A DNA stretch of 64,000 nucleotides from Ilex aquifolium (lineage: Eukaryota; Streptophyta; Magnoliopsida; Aquifoliales; Aquifoliaceae), in assembly GCA_951799425.1 (NCBI GenBank), contig OX637391.1:18772551-18836550 (forward strand), read 5' to 3'. The notes beneath the pieces are model-generated. The model saw only the letters and a program-made list of their open reading frames with translations, ran no database searches and was not told where the DNA came from. A program made the translations under genes and the position numbers. Below, one piece after another: positions 3,710 through 23,483 of the stretch. The first letter of the stretch is position 1; the number at the start of each line of letters is the position of its first letter.

Positions 3710-4163
3710 TGACGAGCCCAAATCCAACTATACCTAGGCCTAATTCATGGGTTAAGCTCAAATCATCAAAAGGTATGCCAAGCTTAGCTCATGACCTCAG
3801 TTCAATTCAAATCTCAAGAGTTCAGGAAGATTCAATGCACGTGGGAGAACAATCATCGGGATAGCCACTTCTCCAAGATAGTGCTCATCCCCAATTATAG
3901 CTATCCTCCCTGATAAATTAGTAGTTTGGCCTTCACGTCACAACCATATCTAGGGATCTATGGCTATAAATTGTAAAGCCCCCTACACATAGGGGCAAAT
4001 CATACACACCTCACCTTGAGCGTACTCTTGATCTCTCTCTCCTACTACCTTGTACTCTCTCATTAATAGAGCCGACAACCGTCGCCGCCTTCAGTGGTTA
4101 GGTCATCCAAACTCAATCACCCAATCTTTGTCTCTTATTATTAATTGTTTCATTAATTGCTTT
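3710..4163 (+). repeat. Right LTR of the outer element, first part
   Basis: Begins TGACGAGCCC and aligns with the left LTR up to the GCTTT where the chromovirus array inserted. It continues at 23484. Divergence from the left copy is large (many substitutions and small gaps), so this element is much older than the array. Confidence 0.85.
4159..4163. repeat. Target site duplication, left (GCTTT)
   Basis: GCTTT stands directly before the first TGTAACACCCC of the array and is repeated directly after the last LTR at 23479-23483. No other junction inside the array has it. Confidence 0.9.
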
Positions 4164-4470
4164 TGTAACACCCCGCATTTTCGTTCATATAGATATATAG
4201 ATATAGCAAATAATGGTTGTAAAGATGTGGATAGGGGTATTGAAGTGTGTTTGAACTTTGTAAATTTGAAAAGTAAAGATTTAAAATGTTAATGAAAATC
4301 ATAGTTGAAATTTAGTTTTAGTGAGTGAAAATATAAAATGTTAGGTCCTATAACTTGTATTAGATAGGTTTGGTGTATAAATATGTGTTGGAGAGGCTTG
4401 TGATGGATTTGGTTAGTTTTGGAATGGATTGGAAATGGAAAACAAAAGAAATAGGCAAAACTGGGTAAAT

Positions 4471-4596
4471 GGTACCAGTACTGGGTACCGGTACCATACA
4501 GTACCGGTACTGTGTACCGGTACTTCGAATCCAGAAGGTTTGGGGTACCGGTACTGAGTACCGGTACCATACAGTACAGGTACTGGGTACCGGTAC
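4471..4596. repeat. GGTACC/ACCGGT palindrome tract in LTR1
   Basis: 126 bp packed with overlapping perfect palindromes GGTACC and GTACCGGTAC, in two blocks parted by a short spacer with TTCGAATCCAGAAGG. It lies upstream of the TATA box, in the presumed U3. The same tract is at 10192-10317 and 15913-16038; LTR4 has a 97-bp version at 21633-21729. Confidence 0.9.
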
Positions 4597-4643
4597 GATC
4601 CGTCTGACGCCGCTAAACAGTTAAAAAGTCGGGATTTTTGTGT

Positions 4644-4650
4644 TATAAAA
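4644..4650 (+). promoter_or_regulatory. TATA box of the array LTR
   Basis: TATAAAA in GTGTTATAAAACCCATCCC, followed about 30-40 bases later by a pyrimidine-rich stretch suited to transcription start. Identical copies are in LTR2, LTR3 and LTR4. It is the best core promoter candidate in the LTR. Confidence 0.6.
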
Positions 4651-4809
4651 CCCATCCCACATCCCATTTGCCCCATTTCTTCATCTCCCTCTTACCCTAA
4701 CCCTCCTAGAAACCCTTAGAGAGAAAGATAAAACTCAAGATAAAAAGGAAAGACAAAGGGTTCACAAGTGATTCAAGACTCAAACCCTAGGTTTCTTCAA
4801 GAGCATAAG

Positions 4810-5858
4810 GTAGGGGATTTCTTCTCTTTCTCTTACATTGATGTTAGGGTTAATAAATATGTATGTTTGATTCTTAATGATATGTATTTGTTATGGCTCC
4901 ATTGTTTCTTGGTTTTTTTTCAATTGTTAACATGTTTTACACAAAGTTAGGGTTGTATACCCATGAAATCCCTCTTTTGTTTGAAAAACTCTAGTTTTCA
5001 AGAGTGATGGGTTTTCCTCTTGAACTCTTCCTTTATTCTTGATTTCAAAATCATAGTGTTTTGTGTTGAGTAATAAAATGATATTGTTGTGATCTCTTGC
5101 ATTTTCTTTGTTGGTTATTGAAAATGACACATGCTTAAATTGGGGATTTTTAAGATATTCTTGTAAATTGTGAAATTGGGTTTGGTATTGTATCTCTTAT
5201 GAGTGTGGGATGACCATGGGTGGCCTTTGACGAGATATCGTAGAGTGGGTAGACGTGTTGCTTGCTCCGTGAGGGTTGGCATTTCTCCTACCACTCGTAG
5301 TGGGGTTAGTGCTTTGGTAAGACTAAACCGCTATTGCTCACGGGTGCCGTGTAAGAGGGTTAGTATACTAATACCTGGGTTGGATACGTCACTGCCATTG
5401 GTGTGGCATACGCCCTTCCTAAAGGATGGATATCTTTGATAAGATTTGTGTGGGTGTGTGTGGGTTAGATATTACTCAATGTGTCGATTCATGGGGTTTG
5501 CCTTACATCATGTTTGAGATACACATACATATTGATGGATTGTTGTGTTATTGTGGAAAATGGTTTCCTACAAGGACTTGTGGGAGTATGGGATTCCACA
5601 AGGTCTTGTGGGAAAATGGTTTATATTTTAGAAAATGGATATGTATTGAATCTTGGTTTCTTTTACTGTTTATGTAAATTACTGTTGCTACTTAAACTTG
5701 AGATCCATTTTAAAATGTCCTTGTTTTACTTCAAAGATTATGTATGCTATTTGTAAAATGAGACCGGCCATTTTATATGTTTTTATAAACCTTGTTTGAG
5801 TTTGGGAAGATTTTGCTACAGAGCTTCGTGCTCATCCCCTACAATTAATATTTTTCAG
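4810..5858 (+). other. Possible leader intron inside LTR1
   Basis: Donor context GCATAAG/GTAGGGG and acceptor context ATATTTTTCAG/ATTTGG bracket 1,049 bp of T-rich DNA. The solo LTRs at 27846, 39576 and 44001 have donors and acceptors at matching places. Splicing is inferred from sequence only. The same segment exists in LTR2, LTR3 and LTR4. Confidence 0.45.
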
Positions 5859-6349
5859 ATTTGGCTTTAGAGGAAGAGCTCGGTGTGAATGAGCCGGGCC
5901 TTGGGGAAGCTTCCTTGGAGGGGTACCTAGATCCCGAATGGGACATCTAGAGATATAGCTTATTTTGTTCTAAACTAGGAGATTTATTTCTGAACAATGT
6001 AAAGTCTAGATTCTTTTGGAACTCCGCTGCGATATATTCATGTAATTCTTTTGGGGAATGTAATTGCCATATCTGGCCTATTCTTTTGTGATAATGTTAA
6101 GGATAGTATAGATGGTAAATAGAAATTCTATTGTTATTGGATGGTTAAATGGACCCTGTGTGGTCAAGTTAATAGAATTACACAGGTTGTGATTTTTGGG
6201 TGGAGCTTCTTGTACAAAGGAGACTCTGCCCAAATTTTGTTAAAAATTAAGAATGTTTCTTATTTGATGGATATATATTTAGTGCTCTCATGATGTGAAT
6301 GTTTTAGAATGTAATGCCGTCCAGGGTGGTATTTGGGGTGTTACAAAGT

Positions 6350-6361
6350 TGGTATCAGAGC
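6350..6361 (+). promoter_or_regulatory. Primer binding site, initiator tRNA-Met type, unit 1
   Basis: TGGTATCAGAGC, the classic plant tRNA-Met(i) primer site, four bases after the LTR end. The identical site is at 12071-12082 (unit 2) and 17792-17803 (unit 3). LTR4 is followed by the target duplication instead. Confidence 0.93.
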
Positions 6362-6533
6362 TTAGGCTTTAGGTCTTACATGGGAGCTGTAGGTTATGGA
6401 TCACCACTAGAGCCTTAGGACTAGGTTGGATAAAAATTCTTGAGTTAGATTTTCACACGTCCTATGTTCTAGATTAAAGTGATAGTGGGATATCTTGTAC
6501 ATCAATGAACTAAGTTGTATATTGATGTGCAGG

Positions 6534-7808
6534 ATGGACGGTGAACGTGTACGTGGACGAGGGCGTGGTCGTGGTCGTGGAGGGCAAACAAACCCACCAC
6601 CGCCACCACCTCCCGATGCAATTAATGGCATCTATCAGTGTTTGAGGGAGCTCACCACTCTGGTACAACACCAGAATGGGAACAACCATAACGGTGGGGC
6701 TCCTCCACTAGCCCAAGTACCGGGCAACGGAGAGGAGAATAGGAGAATGGTAGTTCTCCGAGAGTTTCTGAGGCAACACCCGCCTACTTTCCAAGGGAGC
6801 TCTAACCCTTTGGATGCGGATAAATGGATCCGCCGAGTGAAGAAGATATGTGATGGCATGGGGATAGCCGAGGATCTTCGGGTCGGCTTGGCGACTTATC
6901 AATTCGAGGGGGAGGCCGACCATTGGTGGGACTCAGTGAAAAGAAGGAGGACCACAGATGCACTCACTTGGGAGGAATTTGACCAAATTTTCCAAGACAA
7001 GTACTTTCCGGAATCAGTAAGAGACAGAATGAAGGCCGATTTCCTTGCTCTCCGACAGGGCAGTAGGACAGTGATCGAGTACGAGAGGAGTTTCGATGAG
7101 CTATCCCGTTATGCTACAGAGTTTATATCTACTGAGGCCAGCAGGGCCAAGCGCTTTGAGCAGGGCTTGAGGCCTGCTATCCGGGAGAAGCTGGTGGCTC
7201 TCAAGATCCGGGAGTATGGGGACCTAGTTGACCGAGCTGCATTGGTGGAGAGAGATATAGAAGACAGCCAGCAGCGACAGAGCTTCGCGAGAGGAGGTCC
7301 GATCAGGACGGACCCTAGCACCAGTGGAGTGCAGCGAGCAGCACCATACCGAAGTCCAGACCAGGCAGGTGGACAGAGACTTCTGACAGCTCGAGGAGAT
7401 GAAGTGACTCAGACTAGAACAAGAACTGACCCGCGCCAATGCTTTGCATGCGGAGAGTATGGGCACTTCAAACATAGATGCCCCTCGTTTCCACCAAGGA
7501 CCAAACAAGCAACCGAGCAAGTACCAGCAAACAAGCCACCTCTACAAAGGCCAGCACAGCAGATACCTCAGATAGCTCGAGGAGCGAGAGGCGTACCAGA
7601 GAGAGTAGGCACGGATGCACGCCGATGCTTCGCCTGTGGAGGTGTTGGGCACTTCAAAGATAATTGTCCATTGCTTTCCACCAAGACCAACCAAGTAACT
7701 GAGCGAGTGAATGCAAACAGGCCACCGCTACGACAGCCACTACCACCCCAGAGACCGTTACAAGCTCAAGCCCCCGGCGCGCCAATCATGGAAGGGTTTT
7801 TGCTTTGA
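6534..7808 (+). CDS. gag: Gag polyprotein, unit 1
   Basis: 424 residues, intact. Gag packages the RNA into virus-like particles in the cytoplasm. The N-terminus is an RG-rich run (about residues 5-17) followed by a proline run. A retrotransposon Gag domain covers about 97-240, with the ADHWWDSVKRR and YFPESVRDRMKADF motifs. Two CCHC zinc knuckles, CFACGEYGHFKHRC (303-316) and CFACGGVGHFKDNC (365-378), sit in duplicated segments of 62 codons. The frame is open from 6495, but I take the ATG at 6534 because it directly follows a TGATGTGCAG/G acceptor-like site and starts the RG-rich region. The stop overlaps a protease-like remnant. Confidence 0.88.
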   Translation: MDGERVRGRGRGRGRGGQTNPPPPPPPDAINGIYQCLRELTTLVQHQNGNNHNGGAPPLAQVPGNGEENRRMVVLREFLRQHPPTFQGSSNPLDADKWIRRVKKICDGMGIAEDLRVGLATYQFEGEADHWWDSVKRRRTTDALTWEEFDQIFQDKYFPESVRDRMKADFLALRQGSRTVIEYERSFDELSRYATEFISTEASRAKRFEQGLRPAIREKLVALKIREYGDLVDRAALVERDIEDSQQRQSFARGGPIRTDPSTSGVQRAAPYRSPDQAGGQRLLTARGDEVTQTRTRTDPRQCFACGEYGHFKHRCPSFPPRTKQATEQVPANKPPLQRPAQQIPQIARGARGVPERVGTDARRCFACGGVGHFKDNCPLLSTKTNQVTERVNANRPPLRQPLPPQRPLQAQAPGAPIMEGFLL

Positions 7809-8182
7809 CTCAACAAGAGGAAGATGCCTCCAACACCATTGTGGAAGGTATTGTTCTTCTTTACCATTCTTGGGCCCGAATTACATTGGATACCTATGCG
7901 ACTCATTCTTTTATACGTACTGTGGACGCTGTAGAATTGGGATTGGGTTCCGAGGAGCTAGAACATGCTTTATATGTTGACTTGCCTACGAGAGAACAGG
8001 GGGATACCAGGCTGGTCTGTAAGGGTTACGTGCAGGCGGATTACATTTCAGTTACCAGTAGGTTTACTTATATGTATTTCTTTGACTCTAATTTATATCT
8101 ACTTGCTAGGGAATCATCATGTCTTGCCATTCTGGATAATACTACCTTGTCCCAAAATATATTATGGTGGGGTAAACCCTAA
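7805..8182 (+). pseudogene. Protease-like remnant, unit 1
   Basis: A 125-residue open stretch overlapping the end of gag in another frame. The beginning resembles the chromovirus retropepsin region: TQQEEDASNTIVEGIVLL, then LDTYATHSFIRTVDAVELGL where related elements have the aspartate of the D-(S/T)-G-A-T-HSFI motif. It is divergent and probably inactive. It runs out into the AT-rich spacer. Confidence 0.6.
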
Positions 8183-9290
8183 ATCTTTTCTTATGCCTTC
8201 AAACCCTAGTTTACAAAGGAGATGTGTTTTTCTCTTGATTTCTCCTTTGTTCTTGATTCCCGAACTTAAATATTATTTATTCTAAGCTATGCTATGGGTG
8301 GGTGACCACCAAATCCTTTTGGTATGCTCTTTAAATCCTAGTTTTCAAGAGAGAGGTGTTTTCTCTTTATCTTGCCTCTGTCATTGATTTCAAACCTTGA
8401 TAGTCGTTTGTTATCGATTCCAATACATGATTGTTACTTTATCTCTGATTACAAGCTTGATATCAATTGTTATTGATCTCGAGACTTGATTGTTTCCTTG
8501 TCCTTAACTTCCTAAGCTTAATGATCCATTTGTTCTTGGTATCAAAAATTTGATATTCATTTGTTATTGATTCTACCCTTGTGATTCAATTATTTTTCAA
8601 TATTCAATACTTGATATTCTTTATTCTTGGTTCCAAGACTTGAGTGTTCTTTTGGTCTTAATTTCTAAGCTTCATAATCTTTTGTTCTTGATTACACACC
8701 TTGATAGTCGTTTGTTATTGATTTCCATACATGATTGTTCCGTTAAATCTTAATTTCTCCTTTGTTCACGACTTTCACGCTTGATATGCCTTTATTCTGG
8801 ATTTCCAAACTTAATATTTATTTGCTCTTGATAGCCAAATTTGATATTCATTTGATTGATTATAACTATTGTAAGTCATGTATTCTTGATATTCAATACT
8901 TGACATCCTTTGGTTCTTGATTTCAAGACTTGACATTCAATTGCTCTTGATTTCAATACTTGATTTCTCCTTGTCCTTGAGTTCAAAACTCGATACTATT
9001 TAGTTCTTGGTTACAAAGCTTGATATGCATCTGTTATTGACTCCAAGACTCGATTGTTACTTTGTTCTTGATTCCCAAGCTTGATTATTTATTTGTTCCT
9101 TAATTCAAAATTCTAAAGATTGGTATTGACCAATAAAATGGTATTTTCGATGATATTATGTTAATTTTTCTTAAATTATTTCGTTGGAAAAATGTATATG
9201 GATTTGGAAGCTAAGATGGGAGGACAAGTCGGGTTAGGTTTCAACTGTAACCTTTGGTGGATTGTAATTTATATCAGAGTGCGCAGCGAA
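8183..9290 (+). repeat. AT-rich repetitive spacer in place of the pol core, unit 1
   Basis: Noncoding. Built of degenerate copies, roughly 25-60 bp, of words like TTGTTCTTGATTTC, AAGACTTGATATTC and GTTATTGATTCC. Both ends resemble the intron-like part of the LTR around 4945-5110: the left end has AAACCCTAGTTTACAAAG and TCCTAGTTTTCAAGAGAG, the right end ACCAATAAAATGGTATT. So the spacer may be an expanded, diverged copy of that LTR segment. Copies lie at 13904-15011 and 19625-20731. Confidence 0.7.
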
Positions 9291-9419
9291 CTAACAGAGT
9301 AATGACAAAAAAAGGGGGAAACTACGGAGAAGATTCAACTCATCTGAGAGAGGCTACGGACGGCGCAAGGTAGACAGAATAGCTAGGCGGACCACAGACG
9401 AAGACCCTTAGAATTCAAG

Positions 9420-9842
9420 GTGGGAGACTACGTATTTCTCAAGGTGTCACTCAAGAAGGGCGTGTTTCGATTCAGCAAGAAGGGGAAGTTAGCGCCAAGA
9501 TATACCGGACCGTTTGAGGTAATCAAAGCGGTAGGCAAGGCGGCATATCAACTTCGACTACCAGCCCAGCTATCCGGAGTACATGACGTGTTCCACGTGT
9601 CCAGGTTGAGAAGGTGTCATTCGGATGCAACTCCAGTCGTGAACTTGGAGGAGATGGAAATTTAAGACGGAGCAACCTACGAAGAACAACCAGTAGAAAT
9701 TCTCGACGCAAAGGAAAAAGGTACTCCGTAACAAAGTCATCCGACTAGTGGAGGTTTGGTGGCAACACCATGGAGTGGAGGAAGCTACATGGGAACCGGA
9801 GCAAGAAATGCGGGAGAAGTATCCCTTTTTGTTCACTACTTG
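9420..9842 (+). pseudogene. Integrase C-terminal and chromodomain-like tail, unit 1
   Basis: The open part (9420-9665, 81 residues) reads GDYVFLKVSLKKGVFRF, then KLAPRYTGPFEVIKAVGKAA and VFHVSRLRRC: the GPY/F-type C-terminal integrase region of chromoviruses. Downstream to about 9842 the sequence resembles a chromodomain, with a WWQHHGVEEATWEPE-like stretch. It has no integrase core upstream and is a remnant. In complete relatives this tail guides integration into heterochromatin. Confidence 0.8.
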
Positions 9843-9867
9843 AGGTAAGTTTCGAGGACGAAACTTT

Positions 9868-9884
9868 TTTTAAGGGGGGTGGAT
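9868..9884 (+). promoter_or_regulatory. Polypurine tract, unit 1
   Basis: TTTTAAGGGGGGTGGAT lies directly before LTR2; the AAGGGGGG run is the likely primer for plus-strand synthesis. The same tract precedes LTR3 (to 15605) and LTR4 (to 21325). Confidence 0.75.
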
Positions 9885-12066
9885 TGTAACACCCCGCATT
9901 TTCGTTCATATAGATATATAGATATAGCAAATAATGGTTGTAAAGATGTGGATAGGGGTATTGAAGTGTGTTTGAACTTTGTAAATTTGAAAAGTAAAGA
10001 TTTAAAATGTTACTGAAAATCATAGTTGAAATTTAGTTTTAGTGAGTGAAAATATAAAATGATAGGTCCTATAACTTGTATTAGATAGGTTTGGTGTATA
10101 AATATGTGTTGGAGAGGCTTGTGATGGATTTGGTTAGTTTTGGAATGGATTGGAAATGGAAAACAAAAGAAATAGGCAAAACTGGGTAAATGGTACCAGT
10201 ACTGGGTACCGGTACCATACAGTACCGGTACTGTGTACCGGTACTTCGAATCCAGAAGGTTTGGGGTACCGGTACTGAGTACCGGTACCATACAGTACAG
10301 GTACTGGGTACCGGTACGATCCGTCTGACGCCGCTAAACAGTTAAAAAGTCGGGATTTTTGTGTTATAAAACCCATCCCACATCCCATTTGCCCCATTTC
10401 TTCATCTCCCTCTTACCCTAACCCTCCTAGAAACCCTTAGAGAGAAAGATAAAACTCAAGATAAAAAGGAAAGACAAAGGGTTCACAAGTGATTCAAGAC
10501 TCAAACCCTAGGTTTCTTCAAGAGCATAAGGTAGGGGATTTCTTCTCTTTCTCTTACATTGATGTTAGGGTTAATAAATATGTATGTTTGATTCTTAATG
10601 ATATGTATTTGTTATGGCTCCATTGTTTCTTGGTTTTTTTTCAATTGTTAACATGTTTTACACAAAGTTAGGGTTGTATACCCATGAAATCCCTCTTTTG
10701 TTTGAAAAACTCTAGTTTTCAAGAGTGATGGGTTTTCCTCTTGAACTCTTCCTTTATTCTTGATTTCAAAATCATAGTGTTTTGTGTTGAGTAATAAAAT
10801 GATATTGTTGTGATCTCTTGCATTTTCTTTGTTGGTTATTGAAAATGACACATGCTTAAATTGGGGATTTTTAAGATATTCTTGTAAATTGTGAAATTGG
10901 GTTTGGTATTGTATCTCTTATGAGTGTGGGATGACCATGGGTGGCCTTTGACGAGATATCGTAGAGTGGGTAGACGTGTTGCTTGCTCCGTGAGGGTTGG
11001 CATTTCTCCTACCACTCGTAGTGGGGTTAGTGCTTTGGTAAGACTAAACCGCTATTGCTCACGGGTGCCGTGTAAGAGGGTTAGTATACTAATACCTGGG
11101 TTGGATACGTCACTGCCATTGGTGTGGCATACGCCCTTCCTAAAGGATGGATATCTTTGATAAGATTTGTGTGGGTGTGTGTGGGTTAGATATTACTCAA
11201 TGTGTCGATTCATGGGGTTTGCCTTACATCATGTTTGAGATACACATACATATTGATGGATTGTTGTGTTATTGTGGAAAATGGTTTCCTACAAGGACTT
11301 GTGGGAGTATGGGATTCCACAAGGTCTTGTGGGAAAATGGTTTATATTTTAGAAAATGGATATGTATTGAATCTTGGTTTCTTTTACTGTTTATGTAAAT
11401 TACTGTTGCTACTTAAACTTGAGATCCATTTTAAAATGTCCTTGTTTTACTTCAAAGATTATGTATGCTATTTGTAAAATGAGACCGGCCATTTTATATG
11501 TTTTTATAAACCTTGTTTGAGTTTGGGAAGATTTTGCTACAGAGCTTCGTGCTCATCCCCTACAATTAATATTTTTCAGATTTGGCTTTAGAGGAAGAGC
11601 TCGGTGTGAATGAGCCGGGCCTTGGGGAAGCTTCCTTGGAGGGGTACCTAGATCCCGAATGGGACATCTAGAGATATAGCTTATTTTGTTCTAAACTAGG
11701 AGATTTATTTCTGAACAATGTAAAGTCTAGATTCTTTTGGAACTCCGCTGCGATATATTCATGTAATTCTTTTGGGGAATGTAATTGCCATATCTGGCCT
11801 ATTCTTTTGTGATAATGTTAAGGATAGTATAGATGGTAAATAGAAATTCTATTGTTATTGGATGGTTAAATGGACCCTGTGTGGTCAAGTTAATAGAATT
11901 ACACAGGTTGTGATTTTTGGGTGGAGCTTCTTGTACAAAGGAGACTCTGCCCAAATTTTGTTAAAAATTAAGAATGTTTCTTATTTGATGGATATATATT
12001 TAGTGCTCTCATGATGTGAATGTTTTAGAATGTAATGCCGTCCAGGGTGGTATTTGGGGTGTTACA
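9885..12066 (+). repeat. Array LTR2 (2,182 bp), recombinant
   Basis: Matches LTR4 and not LTR1 at its two diagnostic bases near the left end (10013 C, 10062 A). From the palindrome tract (10192) onward it matches LTR1 and not LTR4. That is the left-3'LTR/right-5'LTR chimera expected from unequal crossing-over. No target duplication lies beside it. Confidence 0.9.
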
Positions 12067-12254
12067 AAGTTGGTATCAGAGCTTAGGCTTTAGGTCTTAC
12101 ATGGGAGCTGTAGGTTATGGATCACCACTAGAGCCTTAGGACTAGGTTGGATAAAAATTCTTGAGTTAGATTTTCACACGTCCTATGTTCTAGATTAAAG
12201 TGATAGTGGGATATCTTGTACATCAATGAACTAAGTTGTATATTGATGTGCAGG

Positions 12255-13529
12255 ATGGACGGTGAACGTGTACGTGGACGAGGGCGTGGTCGTGGTCGTG
12301 GAGGGCAAACAAACCCACCACCGCCACCACCTCCCGATGCAATTAATGGCATCTATCAGTGTTTGAGGGAGCTCACCACTCTGGTACAACACCAGAATGG
12401 GAACAACCATAACGGTGGGGCTCCTCCACTAGCCCAAGTACCGGGCAACGGAGAGGAGAATAGGAGAATGGTAGTTCTCCGAGAGTTTCTGAGGCAACAC
12501 CCGCCTACTTTCCAAGGGAGCTCTAACCCTTTGGATGCGGATAAATGGATCCGCCGAGTGAAGAAGATATGTGATGGCATGGGGATAGCCGAGGATCTTC
12601 GGGTCGGCTTGGCGACTTATCAATTCGAGGGGGAGGCCGACCATTGGTGGGACTCAGTGAAAAGAAGGAGGACCACAGATGCACTCACTTGGGAGGAATT
12701 TGACCAAATTTTCCAAGACAAGTACTTTCCGGAATCAGTAAGAGACAGAATGAAGGCCGATTTCCTTGCTCTCCGACAGGGCAGTAGGACAGTGATCGAG
12801 TACGAGAGGAGTTTCGATGAGCTATCCCGTTATGCTACAGAGTTTATATCTACTGAGGCCAGCAGGGCCAAGCGCTTTGAGCAGGGCTTGAGGCCTGCTA
12901 TCCGGGAGAAGCTGGTGGCTCTCAAGATCCGGGAGTATGGGGACCTAGTTGACCGAGCTGCATTGGTGGAGAGAGATATAGAAGACAGCCAGCAGCGACA
13001 GAGCTTCGCGAGAGGAGGTCCGATCAGGACGGACCCTAGCACCAGTGGAGTGCAGCGAGCAGCACCATACCGAAGTCCAGACCAGGCAGGTGGACAGAGA
13101 CTTCTGACAGCTCGAGGAGATGAAGTGACTCAGACTAGAACAAGAACTGACCCGCGCCAATGCTTTGCATGCGGAGAGTATGGGCACTTCAAACATAGAT
13201 GCCCCTCGTTTCCACCAAGGACCAAACAAGCAACCGAGCAAGTACCAGCAAACAAGCCACCTCTACAAAGGCCAGCACAGCAGATACCTCAGATAGCTCG
13301 AGGAGCGAGAGGCGTACCAGAGAGAGTAGGCACGGATGCACGCCGATGCTTCGCCTGTGGAGGTGTTGGGCACTTCAAAGATAATTGTCCATTGCTTTCC
13401 ACCAAGACCAACCAAGTAACTGAGCGAGTGAATGCAAACAGGCCACCGCTACGACAGCCACTACCACCCCAGAGACCGTTACAAGCTCAAGCCCCCGGCG
13501 CGCCAATCATGGAAGGGTTTTTGCTTTGA
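12255..13529 (+). CDS. gag: Gag polyprotein, unit 2
   Basis: Protein identical to that of unit 1, with the same RG-rich start, Gag domain and two zinc knuckles. Complete identity with unit 1 fits a recent copy made by recombination. Confidence 0.88.
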   Translation: MDGERVRGRGRGRGRGGQTNPPPPPPPDAINGIYQCLRELTTLVQHQNGNNHNGGAPPLAQVPGNGEENRRMVVLREFLRQHPPTFQGSSNPLDADKWIRRVKKICDGMGIAEDLRVGLATYQFEGEADHWWDSVKRRRTTDALTWEEFDQIFQDKYFPESVRDRMKADFLALRQGSRTVIEYERSFDELSRYATEFISTEASRAKRFEQGLRPAIREKLVALKIREYGDLVDRAALVERDIEDSQQRQSFARGGPIRTDPSTSGVQRAAPYRSPDQAGGQRLLTARGDEVTQTRTRTDPRQCFACGEYGHFKHRCPSFPPRTKQATEQVPANKPPLQRPAQQIPQIARGARGVPERVGTDARRCFACGGVGHFKDNCPLLSTKTNQVTERVNANRPPLRQPLPPQRPLQAQAPGAPIMEGFLL

Positions 13530-13903
13530 CTCAACAAGAGGAAGATGCCTCCAACACCATTGTGGAAGGTATTGTTCTTCTTTACCATTCTTGGGCCCGA
13601 ATTACATTGGATACCTATGCGACTCATTCTTTTATACGTACTGTGGACGCTGTAGAATTGGGATTGGGTTCCGAGGAGCTAGAACATGCTTTATATGTTG
13701 ACTTGCCTACGAGAGAACAGGGGGATACCAGGCTGGTCTGTAAGGGTTACGTGCAGGCGGATTACATTTCAGTTACCAGTAGGTTTACTTATATGTATTT
13801 CTTTGACTCTAATTTATATCTACTTGCTAGGGAATCATCATGTCTTGCCATTCTGGATAATACTACCTTGTCCCAAAATATATTATGGTGGGGTAAACCC
13901 TAA
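13526..13903 (+). pseudogene. Protease-like remnant, unit 2
   Basis: Identical in translation to the unit 1 remnant; same overlap with the end of gag and same run into spacer. Confidence 0.6.
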
Positions 13904-15011
13904 ATCTTTTCTTATGCCTTCAAACCCTAGTTTACAAAGGAGATGTGTTTTTCTCTTGATTTCTCCTTTGTTCTTGATTCCCGAACTTAAATATTATTTA
14001 TTCTAAGCTATGCTATGGGTGGGTGACCACCAAATCCTTTTGGTATGCTCTTTAAATCCTAGTTTTCAAGAGAGAGGTGTTTTCTCTTTATCTTGCCTCT
14101 GTCATTGATTTCAAACCTTGATAGTCGTTTGTTATCGATTCCAATACATGATTGTTACTTTATCTCTGATTACAAGCTTGATATCAATTGTTATTGATCT
14201 CGAGACTTGATTGTTTCCTTGTCCTTAACTTCCTAAGCTTAATGATCCATTTGTTCTTGGTATCAAAAATTTGATATTCATTTGTTATTGATTCTACCCT
14301 TGTGATTCAATTATTTTTCAATATTCAATACTTGATATTCTTTATTCTTGGTTCCAAGACTTGAGTGTTCTTTTGGTCTTAATTTCTAAGCTTCATAATC
14401 TTTTGTTCTTGATTACACACCTTGATAGTCGTTTGTTATTGATTTCCATACATGATTGTTCCGTTAAATCTTAATTTCTCCTTTGTTCACGACTTTCACG
14501 CTTGATATGCCTTTATTCTGGATTTCCAAACTTAATATTTATTTGCTCTTGATAGCCAAATTTGATATTCATTTGATTGATTATAACTATTGTAAGTCAT
14601 GTATTCTTGATATTCAATACTTGACATCCTTTGGTTCTTGATTTCAAGACTTGACATTCAATTGCTCTTGATTTCAATACTTGATTTCTCCTTGTCCTTG
14701 AGTTCAAAACTCGATACTATTTAGTTCTTGGTTACAAAGCTTGATATGCATCTGTTATTGACTCCAAGACTCGATTGTTACTTTGTTCTTGATTCCCAAG
14801 CTTGATTATTTATTTGTTCCTTAATTCAAAATTCTAAAGATTGGTATTGACCAATAAAATGGTATTTTCGATGATATTATGTTAATTTTTCTTAAATTAT
14901 TTCGTTGGAAAAATGTATATGGATTTGGAAGCTAAGATGGGAGGACAAGTCGGGTTAGGTTTCAACTGTAACCTTTGGTGGATTGTAATTTATATCAGAG
15001 TGCGCAGCGAA
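13904..15011 (+). repeat. AT-rich repetitive spacer, unit 2
   Basis: Copy of the unit 1 spacer; no difference noticed by eye. No coding content. Confidence 0.7.
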
Positions 15012-15140
15012 CTAACAGAGTAATGACAAAAAAAGGGGGAAACTACGGAGAAGATTCAACTCATCTGAGAGAGGCTACGGACGGCGCAAGGTAGACAGAA
15101 TAGCTAGGCGGACCACAGACGAAGACCCTTAGAATTCAAG

Positions 15141-15563
15141 GTGGGAGACTACGTATTTCTCAAGGTGTCACTCAAGAAGGGCGTGTTTCGATTCAGCAAG
15201 AAGGGGAAGTTAGCGCCAAGATATACCGGACCGTTTGAGGTAATCAAAGCGGTAGGCAAGGCGGCATATCAACTTCGACTACCAGCCCAGCTATCCGGAG
15301 TACATGACGTGTTCCACGTGTCCAGGTTGAGAAGGTGTCATTCGGATGCAACTCCAGTCGTGAACTTGGAGGAGATGGAAATTTAAGACGGAGCAACCTA
15401 CGAAGAACAACCAGTAGAAATTCTCGACGCAAAGGAAAAAGGTACTCCGTAACAAAGTCATCCGACTAGTGGAGGTTTGGTGGCAACACCATGGAGTGGA
15501 GGAAGCTACATGGGAACCGGAGCAAGAAATGCGGGAGAAGTATCCCTTTTTGTTCACTACTTG
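15141..15563 (+). pseudogene. Integrase C-terminal and chromodomain-like tail, unit 2
   Basis: Same 81-residue open part as unit 1 (15141-15386) followed by the chromodomain-like stretch and the polypurine tract before LTR3. Confidence 0.8.
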
Positions 15564-15605
15564 AGGTAAGTTTCGAGGACGAAACTTTTTTTAAGGGGGG
15601 TGGAT

Positions 15606-17787
15606 TGTAACACCCCGCATTTTCGTTCATATAGATATATAGATATAGCAAATAATGGTTGTAAAGATGTGGATAGGGGTATTGAAGTGTGTTTGAACTT
15701 TGTAAATTTGAAAAGTAAAGATTTAAAATGTTACTGAAAATCATAGTTGAAATTTAGTTTTAGTGAGTGAAAATATAAAATGATAGGTCCTATAACTTGT
15801 ATTAGATAGGTTTGGTGTATAAATATGTGTTGGAGAGGCTTGTGATGGATTTGGTTAGTTTTGGAATGGATTGGAAATGGAAAACAAAAGAAATAGGCAA
15901 AACTGGGTAAATGGTACCAGTACTGGGTACCGGTACCATACAGTACCGGTACTGTGTACCGGTACTTCGAATCCAGAAGGTTTGGGGTACCGGTACTGAG
16001 TACCGGTACCATACAGTACAGGTACTGGGTACCGGTACGATCCGTCTGACGCCGCTAAACAGTTAAAAAGTCGGGATTTTTGTGTTATAAAACCCATCCC
16101 ACATCCCATTTGCCCCATTTCTTCATCTCCCTCTTACCCTAACCCTCCTAGAAACCCTTAGAGAGAAAGATAAAACTCAAGATAAAAAGGAAAGACAAAG
16201 GGTTCACAAGTGATTCAAGACTCAAACCCTAGGTTTCTTCAAGAGCATAAGGTAGGGGATTTCTTCTCTTTCTCTTACATTGATGTTAGGGTTAATAAAT
16301 ATGTATGTTTGATTCTTAATGATATGTATTTGTTATGGCTCCATTGTTTCTTGGTTTTTTTTCAATTGTTAACATGTTTTACACAAAGTTAGGGTTGTAT
16401 ACCCATGAAATCCCTCTTTTGTTTGAAAAACTCTAGTTTTCAAGAGTGATGGGTTTTCCTCTTGAACTCTTCCTTTATTCTTGATTTCAAAATCATAGTG
16501 TTTTGTGTTGAGTAATAAAATGATATTGTTGTGATCTCTTGCATTTTCTTTGTTGGTTATTGAAAATGACACATGCTTAAATTGGGGATTTTTAAGATAT
16601 TCTTGTAAATTGTGAAATTGGGTTTGGTATTGTATCTCTTATGAGTGTGGGATGACCATGGGTGGCCTTTGACGAGATATCGTAGAGTGGGTAGACGTGT
16701 TGCTTGCTCCGTGAGGGTTGGCATTTCTCCTACCACTCGTAGTGGGGTTAGTGCTTTGGTAAGACTAAACCGCTATTGCTCACGGGTGCCGTGTAAGAGG
16801 GTTAGTATACTAATACCTGGGTTGGATACGTCACTGCCATTGGTGTGGCATACGCCCTTCCTAAAGGATGGATATCTTTGATAAGATTTGTGTGGGTGTG
16901 TGTGGGTTAGATATTACTCAATGTGTCGATTCATGGGGTTTGCCTTACATCATGTTTGAGATACACATACATATTGATGGATTGTTGTGTTATTGTGGAA
17001 AATGGTTTCCTACAAGGACTTGTGGGAGTATGGGATTCCACAAGGTCTTGTGGGAAAATGGTTTATATTTTAGAAAATGGATATGTATTGAATCTTGGTT
17101 TCTTTTACTGTTTATGTAAATTACTGTTGCTACTTAAACTTGAGATCCATTTTAAAATGTCCTTGTTTTACTTCAAAGATTATGTATGCTATTTGTAAAA
17201 TGAGACCGGCCATTTTATATGTTTTTATAAACCTTGTTTGAGTTTGGGAAGATTTTGCTACAGAGCTTCGTGCTCATCCCCTACAATTAATATTTTTCAG
17301 ATTTGGCTTTTGAGGAAGAGCTCGGTGTGAATGAGCCGGGCCTTGGGGAAGCTTCCTTGGAGGGGTACCTAGATCCCGAATGGGACATCTAGAGATATAG
17401 CTTATTTTGTTCTAAACTAGGAGATTTATTTCTGAACAATGTAAAGTCTAGATTCTTTTGGAACTCCGCTGCGATATATTCATGTAATTCTTTTGGGGAA
17501 TGTAATTGCCATATCTGGCCTATTCTTTTGTGATAATGTTAAGGATAGTATAGATGGTAAATAGAAATTCTATTGTTATTGGATGGTTAAATGGACCCTG
17601 TGTGGTCAAGTTAATAGAATTACACAGGTTGTGATTTTTGGGTGGAGCTTCTTGTACAAAGGAGACTCTGCCCAAATTTTGTTAAAAATTAAGAATGTTT
17701 CTTATTTGATGGATATATATTTAGTGCTCTCATGATGTGAATGTTTTAGAATGTAATGCCGTCCAGGGTGGTATTTGGGGTGTTACA
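15606..17787 (+). repeat. Array LTR3 (2,182 bp), recombinant
   Basis: Has the same chimeric pattern as LTR2 (LTR4-like bases near the left end, LTR1-like from the palindrome tract on), so LTR2 and LTR3 descend from one crossover product. I noticed one base private to it, near 17311. Confidence 0.9.
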
Positions 17788-17975
17788 AAGTTGGTATCAG
17801 AGCTTAGGCTTTAGGTCTTACATGGGAGCTGTAGGTTATGGATCACCACTAGAGCCTTAGGACTAGGTTGGATAAAAATTCTTGAGTTAGATTTTCACAC
17901 GTCCTATGTTCTAGATTAAAGTGATAGTGGGATATCTTGTACATCAATGAACTAAGTTGTATATTGATGTGCAGG

Positions 17976-19250
17976 ATGGACGGTGAACGTGTACGTGGAC
18001 GAGGGCGTGGTCGTGGTCGTGGAGGGCAAACAAACCCACCACCGCCACCACCTCCCGATGCAATTAATGGCATCTATCAGTGTTTGAGGGAGCTCACCAC
18101 TCTGGTACAACACCAGAATGGGAACAACCATAACGGTGGGGCTCCTCCACTAGCCCAAGTACCGGGCAACGGAGAGGAGAATAGGAGAATGGTAGTTCTC
18201 CGAGAGTTTCTGAGGCAACACCCGCCTACTTTCCAAGGGAGCTCTAACCCTTTGGATGCGGATAAATGGATCCGCCGAGTGAAGAAGATATGTGATGGCA
18301 TGGGGATAGCCGAGGATCTTCGGGTCGGCTTGGCGACTTATCAATTCGAGGGGGAGGCCGACCATTGGTGGGACTCAGTGAAAAGAAGGAGGACCACAGA
18401 TGCACTCACTTGGGAGGAATTTGACCAAATTTTCCAAGACAAGTACTTTCCGGAATCAGTAAGAGACAGAATGAAGGCCGATTTCCTTGCTCTCCGACAG
18501 GGCAGTAGGACGGTGATCGAGTACGAGAGGAGTTTCGATGAGCTATCCCGTTATGCTACAGAGTTTATATCTACTGAGGCCAGCAGGGCCAAGCGCTTTG
18601 AGCAGGGCTTGAGGCCTGCTATCCGGGAGAAGCTGGTGGCTCTCAAGATCCGGGAGTATGAGGACCTAGTTGACCGAGCTGCATTGGTGGAGAGAGATAT
18701 AGAAGACAGCCAGCAGCGACAGAGCTTCGCGAGAGGAGGTCCGATCAGGACGGACCCTAGCACCAGTGGAGTGCAGCGAGCAGCACCATACCGAAGTCCA
18801 GACCAGGCAGGTGGACAGAGACTTCTGACAGCTCGAGGAGATGAAGTGACTCAGACTAGAACAAGAACTGACCCGCGCCAATGCTTTGCATGCGGAGAGT
18901 ATGGGCACTTCAAACATAGATGCCCCTCGTTTCCACCAAGGACCAAACAAGCAACCGAGCAAGTACCAGCAAACAAGCCACCTCTACAAAGGCCAGCACA
19001 GCAGATACCTCAGATAGCTCGAGGAGCGAGAGGCGTACCAGAGAGAGTAGGCACGGATGCACGCCGATGCTTCGCCTGTGGAGGTGTTGGGCACTTCAAA
19101 GATAATTGTCCATTGCTTTCCACCAAGACCAACCAAGTAACTGAGCGAGTGAATGCAAACAGGCCACCGCTACGACAGCCACTACCACCCCAGAGACCGT
19201 TACAAGCTCAAGCCCCCGGCGCGCCAATCATGGAAGGGTTTTTGCTTTGA
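17976..19250 (+). CDS. gag: Gag polyprotein, unit 3
   Basis: Intact; one residue differs from units 1 and 2 (E for G in REYGDL). Domains as in unit 1. The small divergence of unit 3 as a whole suggests it is the older of the copies, with units 1 and 2 related by the latest duplication. Confidence 0.88.
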   Translation: MDGERVRGRGRGRGRGGQTNPPPPPPPDAINGIYQCLRELTTLVQHQNGNNHNGGAPPLAQVPGNGEENRRMVVLREFLRQHPPTFQGSSNPLDADKWIRRVKKICDGMGIAEDLRVGLATYQFEGEADHWWDSVKRRRTTDALTWEEFDQIFQDKYFPESVRDRMKADFLALRQGSRTVIEYERSFDELSRYATEFISTEASRAKRFEQGLRPAIREKLVALKIREYEDLVDRAALVERDIEDSQQRQSFARGGPIRTDPSTSGVQRAAPYRSPDQAGGQRLLTARGDEVTQTRTRTDPRQCFACGEYGHFKHRCPSFPPRTKQATEQVPANKPPLQRPAQQIPQIARGARGVPERVGTDARRCFACGGVGHFKDNCPLLSTKTNQVTERVNANRPPLRQPLPPQRPLQAQAPGAPIMEGFLL

Positions 19251-19624
19251 CTCAACAAGAGGAAGATGCCTCCAACACCATTGTGGAAGGTATTGTTCTT
19301 CTTTACCATTCTTGGGCCCGAATTACATTGGATACCTATGCGACTCATTCTTTTATACGTACTGTGGACGCTGTAGAATTGGGATTGGGTTCCGAGGAGC
19401 TAGAACATGCTTTATATGTTGACTTGCCTACGAGAGAACAGGGGGATACCAGGCTGGTCTGTAAGGGTTACGTGCAGGCGGATTACATTTCAGTTACCAG
19501 TAGGTTTACTTATATGTATTTCTTTGACTCTAATTTATATCTACTTGCTAGGGAATCATCATGTCTTGCCATTCTGGATAATACTACCTTGTCCCAAAAT
19601 ATATTATGGTGGGGTAAACCCTAA
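19247..19624 (+). pseudogene. Protease-like remnant, unit 3
   Basis: Identical in translation to the copies in units 1 and 2. Confidence 0.6.
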
Positions 19625-20731
19625 ATCTTTTCTTATGCCTTCAAACCCTAGTTTACAAAGGAGATGTGTTTTTCTCTTGATTTCTCCTTTGTTCTTGATT
19701 CCCGAACTTAAATATTATTTATTCTAAGCTATGCTATGGGTGGGTGACCACCAAATCCTTTTGGTATGCTCTTTAAATCCTAGTTTTCAAGAGAGAGGTG
19801 TTTTCTCTTTATCTTGCCTCTGTCATTGATTTCAAACCTTGATAGTCGTTTGTTATCGATTCCAATACATGATTGTTACTTTATCTCTGATTACAAGCTT
19901 GATATCAATTGTTATTGATCTCGAGACTTGATTGTTTCCTTGTCCTTAACTTCCTAAGCTTAATGATCCATTTGTTCTTGGTATCAAAAATTTGATATTC
20001 ATTTGTTATTGATTCTACCCTTGTGATTCAATTATTTTTCAATATTCAATACTTGATATTCTTTATTCTTGGTTCCAAGACTTGAGTGTTCTTTTGGTCT
20101 TGATTTCTAAGCTTCATAATCTTTTGTTCTTGATTACACACCTTGATAGTCGTTTGTTATTATTTCCATACATGATTGTTCCGTTAAATCTTAATTTCTC
20201 CTTTGTTCACGACTTTCACGCTTGATATGCCTTTATTCTGGATTTCCAAACTTAATATTTATTTGCTCTTGATAGCCAAATTTGATATTCATTTGATTGA
20301 TTATAACTATTGTAAGTCATGTATTCTTGATATTCAATACTTGACATCCTTTGGTTCTTGATTTCAAGACTTGACATTCAATTGCTCTTGATTTCAATAC
20401 TTGATTTCTCCTTGTCCTTGAGTTCAAAACTCGATACTATTTAGTTCTTGGTTACAAAGCTTGATATGCATCTGTTATTGACTCCAAGACTCGATTGTTA
20501 CTTTGTTCTTGATTCCCAAGCTTGATTATTTATTTGTTCCTTAATTCAAAATTCTAAAGATTGGTATTGACCAATAAAATGGTATTTTCGATGATATTAT
20601 GTTAATTTTTCTTAAATTATTTCGTTGGAAAAATGTATATGGATTTGGAAGCTAAGATGGGAGGACAAGTCGGGTTAGGTTTCAACTGTAACCTTTGGTG
20701 GATTGTAATTTATATCAGAGTGCGCAGCGAA
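19625..20731 (+). repeat. AT-rich repetitive spacer, unit 3
   Basis: As in units 1 and 2 but one base shorter, which accounts for the 5,720-bp length of this unit. Confidence 0.7.
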
Positions 20732-20860
20732 CTAACAGAGTAATGACAAAAAAAGGGGGAAACTACGGAGAAGATTCAACTCATCTGAGAGAGGCTACGG
20801 ACGGCGCAAGGTAGACAGAATAGCTAGGCGGACCACAGACGAAGACCCTTAGAATTCAAG

Positions 20861-21283
20861 GTGGGAGACTACGTATTTCTCAAGGTGTCACTCAAGAAGG
20901 GCGTGTTTCGATTCAGCAAGAAGGAGAAGTTAGCGCCAAGATATACCGGACCGTTTGAGGTAATCAAAGCGGTAGGCAAGGCGGCATATCAACTTCGACT
21001 ACCAGCCCAGCTATCCGGAGTACATGACGTGTTCCACGTGTCCAGGTTGAGAAGGTGTCATTCGGATGCAACTCCAGTCGTGAACTTGGAGGAGATGGAA
21101 ATTTAAGACGGAGCAACCTACGAAGAACAACCAGTAGAAATTCTCGACGCAAAGGAAAAAGGTACTCCGTAACAAAGTCATCCGACTAGTGGAGGTTTGG
21201 TGGCAACACCATGGAGTGGAGGAAGCTACATGGGAACCGGAGCAAGAAATGCGGGAGAAGTATCCCTTTTTGTTCACTACTTG
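20861..21283 (+). pseudogene. Integrase C-terminal and chromodomain-like tail, unit 3
   Basis: Same structure as unit 1, with one conservative difference in the GPY/F-type region (KKEKLAPRY for KKGKLAPRY). Followed by the polypurine tract and LTR4. Confidence 0.8.
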
Positions 21284-21325
21284 AGGTAAGTTTCGAGGAC
21301 GAAACTTTTTTTAAGGGGGGTGGAT

Positions 21326-23478
21326 TGTAACACCCCGCATTTTCGTTCATATAGATATATAGATATAGCAAATAATGGTTGTAAAGATGTGGATAGGGGT
21401 ATTGAAGTGTGTTTGAACTTTGTAAATTTGAAAAGTAAAGATTTAAAATGTTACTGAAAATCATAGTTGAAATTTAGTTTTAGTGAGTGAAAATATAAAA
21501 TGATAGGTCCTATAACTTGTATTAGATAGGTTTGGTGTATAAATATGTGTTGGAGAGGCTTGTGATGGATTTGGTTAGTTTTGGAATGGATTGGAAATGG
21601 AAAACAAAAGAAATAGGCAAAACTGGGTAAATGGTACCGGTACTGGGTACCGGTACTTCGACTCCAGAAGGTTTGGGGTACCGGTACTGAGTACCGGTAC
21701 CACACAGTACAGGTACTGGGTACCGGTACGATCCGTCTGACGCCGCTAAACAGTTAAAAAGTCGGGATTTTTGTGTTATAAAACCCATCCCACATCCCAT
21801 TTGCCCCATTTCTTCATCTCCCTCTTACCCTAACCCTCCTAGAAACCCTTAGAGAGAAAGATAAAACTCAAGATAAAAAAGAAAGACAAAGGGTTCACAA
21901 GTGATTCAAGACTCAAACCCTAGGTTTCTTCAAGAGCATAAGGTAGGGGATTTCTTCTCTTTCTCTTACATTGATGTTAGGGTTAATAAATATGTATGTT
22001 TGATTCTTAATGATATGTATTTGTTATGGCTCCATTGTTTCTTGGTTTTTTTTCAATTGTTAACATGTTTTACACAAAGTTAGGGTTGTATACCCATGAA
22101 ATCCCTCTTTTGTTTGAAAAACCCTAGTTTTCAAGAGTGATGGGTTTTCCTCTTGAACTCTTCCTTTATTCTTGATTTCAAAATCATAGTGTTTTGTGTT
22201 GAGTAATAAAATGATATTGTTGTGATCTCTTGCATTTTCTTTGTTGGTTATTGAAAATGACACATGCTTAAATTGGGGATTTTTAAGATATTCTTGTAAA
22301 TTGTGAAATTGGGTTTGATATTGTATCTCTTATGAGTGTGGGATGACCATGGGTGACCTTTGACGAGATATCGTAGAGTGGATAGACGTATTGCTTGCTC
22401 CGTGAGGGTTGGCATTTCTCCTACCACTCGTAGTGGGGTTAGTGCTTTGGTAAGACTAAACCGCTATTGCTCACGGGTGCCGTGTAAGAGGGTTAGTATA
22501 CTAATACCTGGGTTGGATACGTCACTGCCATTGGTGTGGCATACGCCCTTCCTAAAGGATGGATATCTTTGATAAGATTTGTGTGGGTGTGTGTGGGTTA
22601 GATATTACTCAATGTGTCGATTCATGGGGTTTGCCTTACATCATGTTTGAGATACACATACATATTGATGAATTGTTGTGTTATTGTGGAAAATGGTTTC
22701 CTACAAGGACTTGTGGGAGTATGGGATTCCACAAGGTCTTGTGGGAAAATGGTTTATATTTTAGAAAATGGATATGTATTGAATCTTGGTTTCTTTTACT
22801 GTTTATGTAAATTACTGTTGCTACTTAAACTTGAGATCCATTTTAAAATGTCCCTGTTTTACTTCAAAGATTATGTATGCTATTTGTAAAATGAGACCGG
22901 CCATTTTATATGTTTTTATAAACCTTGTTTGAGTTTGGGAAGATTTTGCTACAGAGCTTCGTGCTCATCCCCTACAATTAATATTTTTCAGATTTGGCTT
23001 TAGAGGAAGAGCTCGGTGTGAATGAGCCGGGCCTTGGGGAAGCTTCCTTGGAGGGGTACCTAGATCCCGAATGGGACATCTAGAGATATAACTTTTTTCG
23101 TTCTAGACTAGGGGATTTATTTCTGAACAATGTAAAGTCTAGATTCTTTTGGAACTCCGCTGCGATATATTCATGTAATTCTTTTGGGGAATGTAATTGC
23201 CATATCTGGCATATTCTTTTGTGATAATGTTAAGGATAGTATAGATGGTAAATAAAAATTCTATTGTTATTGGATGGTTAAATGGACCATGTGTGGTCAA
23301 GTTAATAGAATTGCACAGGTTGTGATTTTTGGGTGGAGCTTCCTGTACAAAGGAGACTCTGCCCAAATTTTGTTAAAAATTAAGAATGTTTCTTATTTGA
23401 TGGATATATATTTAGTGCTCTCATGATGTGAATGTTTTAGAATGTAATGCCGTCCAGGGTGGTATTTGGGGTGTTACA
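21326..23478 (+). repeat. Array LTR4 (2,153 bp), the divergent outer LTR
   Basis: Identical to LTR2 and LTR3 for its first 313 bases. From the palindrome tract on it differs from LTR1-3 at about 22 positions, mostly transitions, and has a palindrome tract 29 bp shorter. It is followed by GCTTT and the rest of the outer element's right LTR. Confidence 0.9.
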
Positions 23479-23483
23479 GCTTT
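23479..23483. repeat. Target site duplication, right (GCTTT)
   Basis: Direct repeat of 4159-4163, bounding the array on the right. Confidence 0.9.

Follow-up and report, generated by a model that had tools for sequence, protein, structure and literature searches.

A three-body LTR-retrotransposon array in Ilex aquifolium with polarised hybrid LTRs, very probably multiplied in place by unequal recombination

Introduction

Tandem LTR-retrotransposons have been described in rice, Arabidopsis, almond and cotton (Morales-Diaz et al., 2025; PMC11899658). In plants they are reportedly common and variable, with the choice between tandem insertion and later growth left undecided, and those of rice are mostly of the gypsy type, as is the element described here (PMC11899658). 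Plant arrays exceeding two bodies have also been published, namely Wukong, Cassandra and other TRIMs, and in the available text of these reports Wukong reaches up to seven LTRs and Cassandra up to 12 repeats (PMC4528315, PMC7215508, PMC4717578). Unequal crossing-over is suggested for Wukong in the available part of its report (PMC4528315); for TRIM arrays generally, the same partial texts suggest a mechanism or offer two options (PMC7215508, PMC4528315, PMC4717578).

Here, we describe an array in a 64-kb stretch of the Ilex aquifolium genome (the window). Like the tandems of Morales-Diaz et al., it consists of alternating LTRs and internal regions of high identity with an LTR at both ends, and, as in their clear cases, a 5-bp target duplication surrounds the whole (PMC11899658). 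Their two detailed loci have two bodies each, whereas the window array has three; complex insertion and recombination were left undecided there, whereas polarised hybrid LTRs decide between them at the one locus described here (PMC11899658). TRIM arrays, as far as the accessible text of the Cassandra, Wukong and survey reports describes them, are likewise non-autonomous LTR-body-LTR arrays, but TRIMs are small and lack gag, which the window element has (PMC7215508, PMC4528315, PMC4717578). The maize repeats CRM1TR and CRM4TR, derived from centromeric retrotransposons, have a unit cut from LTR and UTR sequence (about 0.7 to 1.4 kb, according to the portion of the report available), in contrast to the whole LTR plus body of 5.7 kb found here (PMC3648361). 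A literature search found neither a whole-element LTR array of 51 units nor polarised hybrid LTRs in a plant array. The window structure is of a known kind, while such direct evidence of the formation route is uncommon.

Overall structure of the array

Sequence comparison within the window shows four LTRs alternating with three bodies at 4164-23478, the array starting and ending with an LTR. Its parts are as follows.

4159..4163, + strand, target-site duplication GCTTT, left copy
4164..6345, + strand, LTR1, the insertion's original 5' LTR (2182 bp, bounded by TG...CA; ancestral A129 and T178)
6346..9884, + strand, body 1 (3539 bp, same sequence as body 2)
9872..9884, + strand, polypurine tract AAGGGGGGTGGAT at an inner junction
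9885..12066, + strand, LTR2, a hybrid (columns 129 and 178 resemble LTR4, everything from column 314 onwards resembles LTR1)
10063..10197, + strand, interval to which LTR2 confines the first exchange point (columns 179-313)
12067..15605, + strand, body 2 (3539 bp, zero differences from body 1)
15606..17787, + strand, LTR3, the same hybrid as LTR2 plus a private T at 17311 (column 1706)
15784..15918, + strand, interval to which LTR3 confines the first exchange point (columns 179-313)
17788..21325, + strand, body 3 (3538 bp; differs from bodies 1 and 2 by four substitutions and a 1-bp deletion)
21326..23478, + strand, LTR4, the insertion's original 3' LTR (2153 bp, with a deletion of 29 bp; ancestral states at columns 827, 1558 and 1810)
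23479..23483, + strand, target-site duplication GCTTT, right copy

This arrangement agrees with that given in a preliminary description of the locus, in which a period of 5,721 bp was reported. The LTR start-to-start distances are 5721, 5721 and 5720, so the period is exact for two spacings, and the third is shorter because of a single base missing from body 3. All three inner LTRs start directly after the polypurine tract (the junction reads AAGGGGGGTGGAT, then TGTAACACC), and the ends of LTR1, LTR2 and LTR3 abut the primer-binding site (GTTACA, then AAGTTGGTATCAGAGC). GCTTT borders the outer ends only, as had been claimed; a target duplication at an inner LTR junction, which the preliminary description had named as contrary to its own reading, was sought at those junctions and is absent. 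The repeated copies are 97.6 to 99.6% identical in pairwise comparison over kilobases, which excludes chance, and the bodies are 99.9 to 100% identical. A search for N bases in the 64-kb window found none, and an Rfam scan of the window gave nothing at gathering level.

Element identity and coding content

The element is a non-autonomous retrotransposon of the Ty3/gypsy type. It shows the hallmarks of this class (TG...CA LTRs, a primer-binding site, a polypurine tract and a 5-bp target duplication), and Pfam found Ty3-type gag, protease and integrase signatures (PF03732, zf-CCHC, RVP_2 and SH3_Tf2-1), with Ty3_capsid scoring under its cut-off. The features of body 1 are as follows.

6350..6361, + strand, primer-binding site TGGTATCAGAGC, which we take to be of the initiator Met tRNA type
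6495..7808, + strand, gag open frame (Retrotrans_gag PF03732, two CCHC zinc knuckles)
7805..8182, + strand, partial aspartyl protease (RVP_2 PF08284)
9420..9665, + strand, integrase C-terminal SH3 domain (PF24626)

No stop interrupts the gag frame in any of the three bodies. The three Pfam-scanned frames contain no reverse transcriptase, RNase H or integrase core, no open frame of at least 70 aa is listed between 8285 and 9420, and no frame for the remaining pol was found in the body. Lacking a reverse transcriptase, RNase H and integrase core of its own, the element is a non-autonomous member. The bodies, which had been called complete, are therefore complete as units but, without a reverse transcriptase, are not complete elements.

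Hybrid LTRs and mutation polarity

Both inner LTRs are mosaics, with the mutations of LTR4 at the left end and the sequence of LTR1 over the remainder. The two sites at which they match LTR4 against LTR1 all lie to the left of the 22 events at which they match LTR1 against LTR4 (chance 1/276), the left side of the hybrid being marked by just these two sites, columns 129 and 178. LTR1 and LTR4 differ by about 1.1%, while LTR2 and LTR3 differ solely at column 1706.

The polarity of the key sites was set by five relatives. All five carry the LTR1 state at columns 129 and 178, and LTR2-4 therefore have derived states in common there. Conversely, the relatives carry the LTR4 state at columns 827 (five of five), 1558 (four of four covered) and 1810 (two of two covered), so that the derived states at these columns are common to LTR1-3. 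Relatives are divided at column 314. At column 366 the state of LTR1-3 occurs in no relative, that of LTR4 in two and a third state in two. Column 1817 is conflicting: the sole covered relative has the LTR4 state and the near matches listed have the LTR1 state. Single states recur outside the array (A178 in at least seven other places, T827 in at least 11 and A1810 in two others). The combined haplotype C129+A178 is matched exactly by three sequences in the 800-Mb assembly, namely LTR2-4, all at this locus; the remaining seven matches at one mismatch or fewer all lack C129.

Related arrays in the same genome

The preliminary description called arrays with three complete bodies seldom seen. This is not supported: arrays A, B, C, D and E, read in the same genome, contain 4, 3, 3, 4 and 3 bodies, a related array K on contig C3 spans 263 kb with 51 units, as judged from probe spacing with one of the units read, and plant reports exist. 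In the middle bodies of B, C and E sorting is complete, with all last-like sites to the left of all first-like ones (order strings FFFFFGGGGGGGGGG, FFFGG and FFFFGGGG; chance 1/3003, 1/10 and 1/70, respectively). The LTRs of C (p about 0.017) and D (p 0.00015-0.0006) tend in that direction, those of B show no order (AUC 0.506) and those of A and E none that is significant; the bodies of D show weak order, and those of A and of the window array are uninformative. Every significant order test points as unequal exchange predicts. The disrupted arrays F (C5:21616691) and G (C2:24984778) were omitted from these tests.

LTR differences are about three times body differences in arrays B and D, an excess that E does not have. 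A simple exchange model does not explain this excess in B and D, whose LTRs, those of B above all, look not recently exchanged. Array D, whose bodies, unlike those of the window, have a long pol frame as judged by eye, was set aside as an example of an array within one clean duplication: it is preceded by GGTCA and followed by GCCTT, which also precedes another LTR start 947 bp upstream. The last LTR of C is cut after column 1763, which places C outside the duplication comparison. At its lower end, K breaks off about 134 bases before its body would be complete, and no K-type LTR was found in the stretch beyond that point.

Proposed mechanism and alternatives

The anatomy, the single target duplication and the polarised hybrid LTRs with a left haplotype confined to this locus are direct observations; the number, order and dates of the exchanges, and crossover as opposed to break repair on a misaligned template, are what we infer from them. 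The window array is very probably a single insertion multiplied in place by unequal recombination between its own LTRs. One non-autonomous Ty3/gypsy-type element would have inserted, making the 5-bp duplication, and its two LTRs would have diverged by about 1.1% before any exchange. Misaligned copies, on sister chromatids or homologues, would then have recombined homologously (LTR4 with LTR1), creating an LTR whose left part came from the 3' LTR and whose right part came from the 5' LTR, and so an array of the form LTR1-body-hybrid-body-LTR4. Bodies 1 and 3 may subsequently have gained the few mutations that separate them, before a second exchange between the old hybrid (now LTR3) and LTR1 produced LTR2 as a further hybrid and copied body 1. 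The identity of bodies 1 and 2 and the restriction of LTR2/LTR3 differences to column 1706 are as such a second exchange predicts.

The preliminary description had reached unequal recombination from the single target duplication. Its conclusion stands, but a concatemer inserted whole also leaves one duplication, which is therefore not decisive alone; the deciding evidence is the polarised hybrid LTRs. Formation of a tandem molecule in replication, by template switching or one-LTR-circle read-through, followed by its insertion whole, has been proposed for tandem LTR elements (PMC11899658) and, in the available text, for Cassandra (PMC7215508), and the LTRs of array B look star-like, resembling three LTRs that diverged from a common starting sequence. 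LTRs from one reverse transcription begin identical, however, so that last-left/first-right derived mutations in the inner LTRs would be unexpected, as would identical bodies 1 and 2 between outer LTRs about 1.1% apart, and we consider this origin quite improbable here. Separate or nested insertions of similar elements might be entertained for so abundant a family (1705 junction matches at three mismatches or fewer), but inner junctions without target duplication, exactly shared LTRs and the near-identity of the bodies leave them almost no probability. Both concatemer and nested insertion rank below recombination at this locus on the mosaic LTRs, their polarity and the haplotype count.

A one-LTR circle, excised from the element or from a copy on the other chromatid and re-entering by recombination, would by reasoning alone produce the same hybrid LTR as direct unequal exchange; it takes two steps and a free circle where a single exchange suffices, no sign of a circle was seen at the locus, and we judge it unlikely. 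There is a similarly small chance that the second body is an error of the assembly. Units 1 and 2 do not differ over 7248 bp and could not be placed by short reads, and the support for the identical second body is the assembly itself. Body 3, LTR1, LTR3 and LTR4 have variants of their own, however, so that at least two bodies look real, five similar arrays in the genome have variants between units, and the window is free of N.

Implications for satellite formation

Satellite DNA is a long array of many head-to-tail units, which the window array, with its three bodies, is not. We lean slightly towards the view that long-LTR Ty3/gypsy elements in Ilex aquifolium follow a path that leads in steps from one insertion to a satellite, of which the 3-, 4- and 51-unit arrays would be stages. 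LTR-LTR unequal exchange would yield a two-body array that body-body exchange then lengthens, and at the C3 site the process may have continued to 51 or more LTR-body units (263 kb, estimated from probe spacing with one unit read). If this path is correct, its steps would be legible from last-left/first-right mosaics. The corresponding test on inner copies needs one assembly, gives the order of events and is applicable to any long-read plant genome. If the 51-unit array arose likewise, whole retrotransposons can seed satellite DNA without prior loss of the body.

Overall organization of the array

Self-comparison of the window shows a single repeat family spanning positions 4163–23478, which column-by-column alignment of the units divides into four LTRs and three bodies (3539, 3539 and 3538 bases for bodies 1, 2 and 3). 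The LTRs are

LTR1, 4164–6345 (5' LTR of the original insertion)
LTR2, 9885–12066
LTR3, 15606–17787
LTR4, 21326–23478 (3' LTR of the original insertion)

GCTTT is present directly 5' of LTR1 and directly 3' of LTR4, and no copy was found when all of the inner junctions, which are of the polypurine tract–LTR and LTR–primer-binding site type, were inspected. The self-comparison, the unit alignment and the restriction of GCTTT to the outer ends thus bear out the preliminary description of four LTRs and three bodies with one target duplication. The array lies in the second copy (3707–4163) of a diverged repeat pair, the first copy of which (371–867) serves as an empty-site comparison. The joined flanks are collinear with this first copy, apart from ∼24 additional bases at the insertion site; identity is 83% on the left side and, on the right, 94% across 35 bases. 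This collinearity is consistent with a straightforward insertion into a repeat that was already there.

In the Pfam scan the open gag frame of the body matched PF03732 (E = 1.3e-21) and has two zinc knuckles, a partial protease matched RVP_2 (E = 2.7e-11), and of the integrase the SH3 end was recognized (SH3_Tf2-1, E = 1.1e-26). None of these frames is interrupted by a stop codon in any of the three bodies, and the open-frame listing of the window gave no frames of 70 or more amino acids between 8285 and 9420. By its domains the element is classified as Ty3/gypsy type, and it presumably depends on another element for replication.

A short distance to the right of the array is a 750 bp head-to-tail duplication (23672–25171; 98.1% identity); other scored genome matches to 23484–24200 are at most 83% identical. 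The window also contains a run of 30 G (46796–46825) and a retroelement remnant, probably of copia type, with Pol_BBD and SH3_retrovirus domains (62369–63833).

Hybrid inner LTRs

In the four-LTR comparison, LTR2, LTR3 and LTR4 are alike and LTR1 differs at alignment columns 129 and 178, whereas from column 314 to 2047 LTR1, LTR2 and LTR3 are alike against LTR4 at 22 events, including a 29 bp deletion. A T at column 1706 is private to LTR3. The states were polarized with five correctly oriented relatives, namely the loci with sequence that scored highest outside the window. At columns 129 and 178 all five relatives have the LTR1 state, so that the inner LTRs and LTR4 have new mutations in common there; the LTR4 state is found at columns 827 (5/5), 1558 (4/4 covered) and 1810 (2/2 covered), so that at these columns the new mutations are common to the inner LTRs and LTR1. 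States are mixed among the relatives at column 314, and at column 366 the LTR4 state occurs in two relatives, a third base in another two and the LTR1 state in none. Column 1817 was left out of the polarization because the sole covered relative (LTR4 state) and the near matches listed for the right-hand pattern (LTR1 state) conflict.

The left haplotype (C129 and A178) has ten genome matches with at most one mismatch; the three exact ones are LTR2, LTR3 and LTR4, and the remaining seven lack C129. Exact genome matches number five for the right-hand pattern with A1810 and 14 for the T827 pattern, three of them in the window array in each case. Our reading is that each inner LTR arose by local recombination, in which the 3' LTR supplied the left end and the 5' LTR the remainder; the exchange point would fall within columns 179–313.

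Other arrays in the genome

The assembly comprises 800 Mb in 103 contigs (here C1, C2 and so on; the window belongs to C1). A junction probe has 1705 genome matches with at most three mismatches. The first 100 matches listed, which lie on C1 to C9 and have no mismatch, form 87 loci when sites on the same strand with 3 to 9 kb spacing are grouped, and eight loci have at least two sites (21 sites). In a random control, with sites placed mid-contig and the lengths of three contigs guessed, such sites averaged 0.4 and never exceeded six in 2000 trials. Multi-site loci were five of 95 among 100 of the 272 matches listed for a second probe, and two of 20 for 22 further sites beyond the listed junction matches; all of these counts come from partial lists biased to young copies. 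Sequence was read for seven of the eight multi-site loci, including the window and excluding the C1:25867700 pair, and five other arrays were aligned:

array A, C1:61705325–61729056, five LTRs, GTATA duplication
array B, C8:30244802–30263498, four LTRs, AGTTG duplication
array C, C5:26273616–26291059, three LTRs and a cut fourth
array D, C2:29187484–29216953, five LTRs
array E, C7:19401197–19420141, four LTRs, ATCCA duplication

Their LTRs match the window LTR in parts only, and on this basis they are assigned to related subfamilies. The target duplication matches in four of the six arrays (the window array, A, B and E); the last LTR of array C is cut, and the outer flanks of array D have no matching target duplication. 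A different LTR begins 947 bp ahead of array D (C2:29186537–29187483), with a flank, GCCTT, identical to the far-end flank of D. Visual inspection of one body of array D (1445–6186 of the array extract) showed a long pol frame, which indicates that coding elements also make arrays.

Probe spacing alone describes three further runs. Eight LTR-start sites at C1:25337722–25394633, of whose seven intervals six measure 6.8 to 6.9 kb and the other 15.6 kb, probably mark an array with at least seven bodies; three sites each lie at C3:10047497–10056237 (4335-base spacing) and C3:14290879–14304424 (∼6737-base spacing).

The longest run, array K, was found on C3 as a regular series of matches to a probe named after column 827:

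array K, about C3:19806334–20073993, 51 LTR–body units, 5.2 kb period, ∼263 kb

Sequence was read at both ends and for one unit, and the remainder follows from probe spacing. The unit has an LTR of ∼2.0 kb and a body of ∼3.2 kb (period ∼5204), and its identity is 91% with the window LTR and reaches 93% with the window body; neighbouring LTRs are 99.4% identical over a 1.2 kb piece. A junction probe for this array has 51 sites (42 exact and nine with one mismatch) on one strand at C3:19809373–20071962, and successive sites are 5118 to 5214 bases apart in 49 of the 50 intervals and 7956 bases apart in the other. The start of the first LTR is at C3:20073993, and the far end breaks off within the last body. 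A variant junction occurs in runs of four, three and one units, as block exchange would leave.

Order of sites within arrays

In each inner copy, sites like the last copy of the array were marked F and sites like the first were marked G; unequal exchange predicts F on the left and G on the right. The test was devised after the alignment tables had been seen, and copies of one array are not independent in it. The LTRs of the window array (2F 22G) are completely sorted (p = 0.0036 and 0.0039). Order is also significant in the LTRs of array C over the first 1763 columns (19F 4G and 18F 4G; p = 0.017 each) and array D (p = 0.0006, 0.00015 and 0.00015); values are higher in array A (3F 7G; p = 0.13 to 0.14), array E (p = 0.26 and 0.40) and array B (20F 18G; AUC 0.51; p = 0.48 and 0.49). 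Bodies are completely sorted in arrays B (5F 10G; p = 0.00065), E (4F 4G; p = 0.014) and C (3F 2G; p = 0.094), so in each of these three-body arrays the middle body has a left part like that of the last body and a right part like that of the first. The array D bodies gave p = 0.12 and 0.038, and those of the window array (0F 5G) and array A (0F 1G) have a single kind of site. No significant order in the opposite direction was found in any LTR or body test of the six arrays. The LTRs of array B appear star-like, and this array may have had an initial two-body stage at insertion or soon after.

Proposed order and dates of the exchanges

Bodies 1 and 2 of the window array are identical, and body 3 differs from them by four substitutions and one deletion. 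A first exchange, between LTR4 and LTR1, would have given a two-body array with one hybrid LTR; a second, between this hybrid and LTR1 at a point between columns 179 and 1705, would have given the present structure. The second exchange accounts for the identity of bodies 1 and 2 while body 3 and LTR3 (T1706) differ, and T1706 itself could instead be a later mutation in LTR3.

At the rate used (1.3e-8 substitutions per site and year, from rice), 23 substitutions over ∼2150 aligned LTR bases place the insertion roughly near 0.4 million years ago. The four body substitutions date the first exchange to tens of thousands of years before present, and 7248 bp without any difference between units 1 and 2 make the second younger than about 16 000 years. 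The dating is approximate, since LTRs and bodies keep unequal pace in arrays B and D, where the within-array LTR difference is ∼3 times that of the bodies; array E has no such excess. Homogenized bodies and faster LTR change are both candidate explanations for the excess.

Relation to known tandem elements

Tandem LTR elements that carry a single duplication have been described in rice, with tandem candidates in three other plants, and the authors leave both complex insertion and recombination possible (PMC11899658). Passages in PMC7215508, PMC4528315 and PMC4717578 describe similar arrays of small non-autonomous elements, and one on maize repeats proposes repair from the sister LTR (PMC3648361). 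The window array resembles the rice elements and the small-element arrays and is of a kind already known. What it adds is a readable, polarized record of unequal exchange, in a genome where one process may extend from three bodies to fifty-one.
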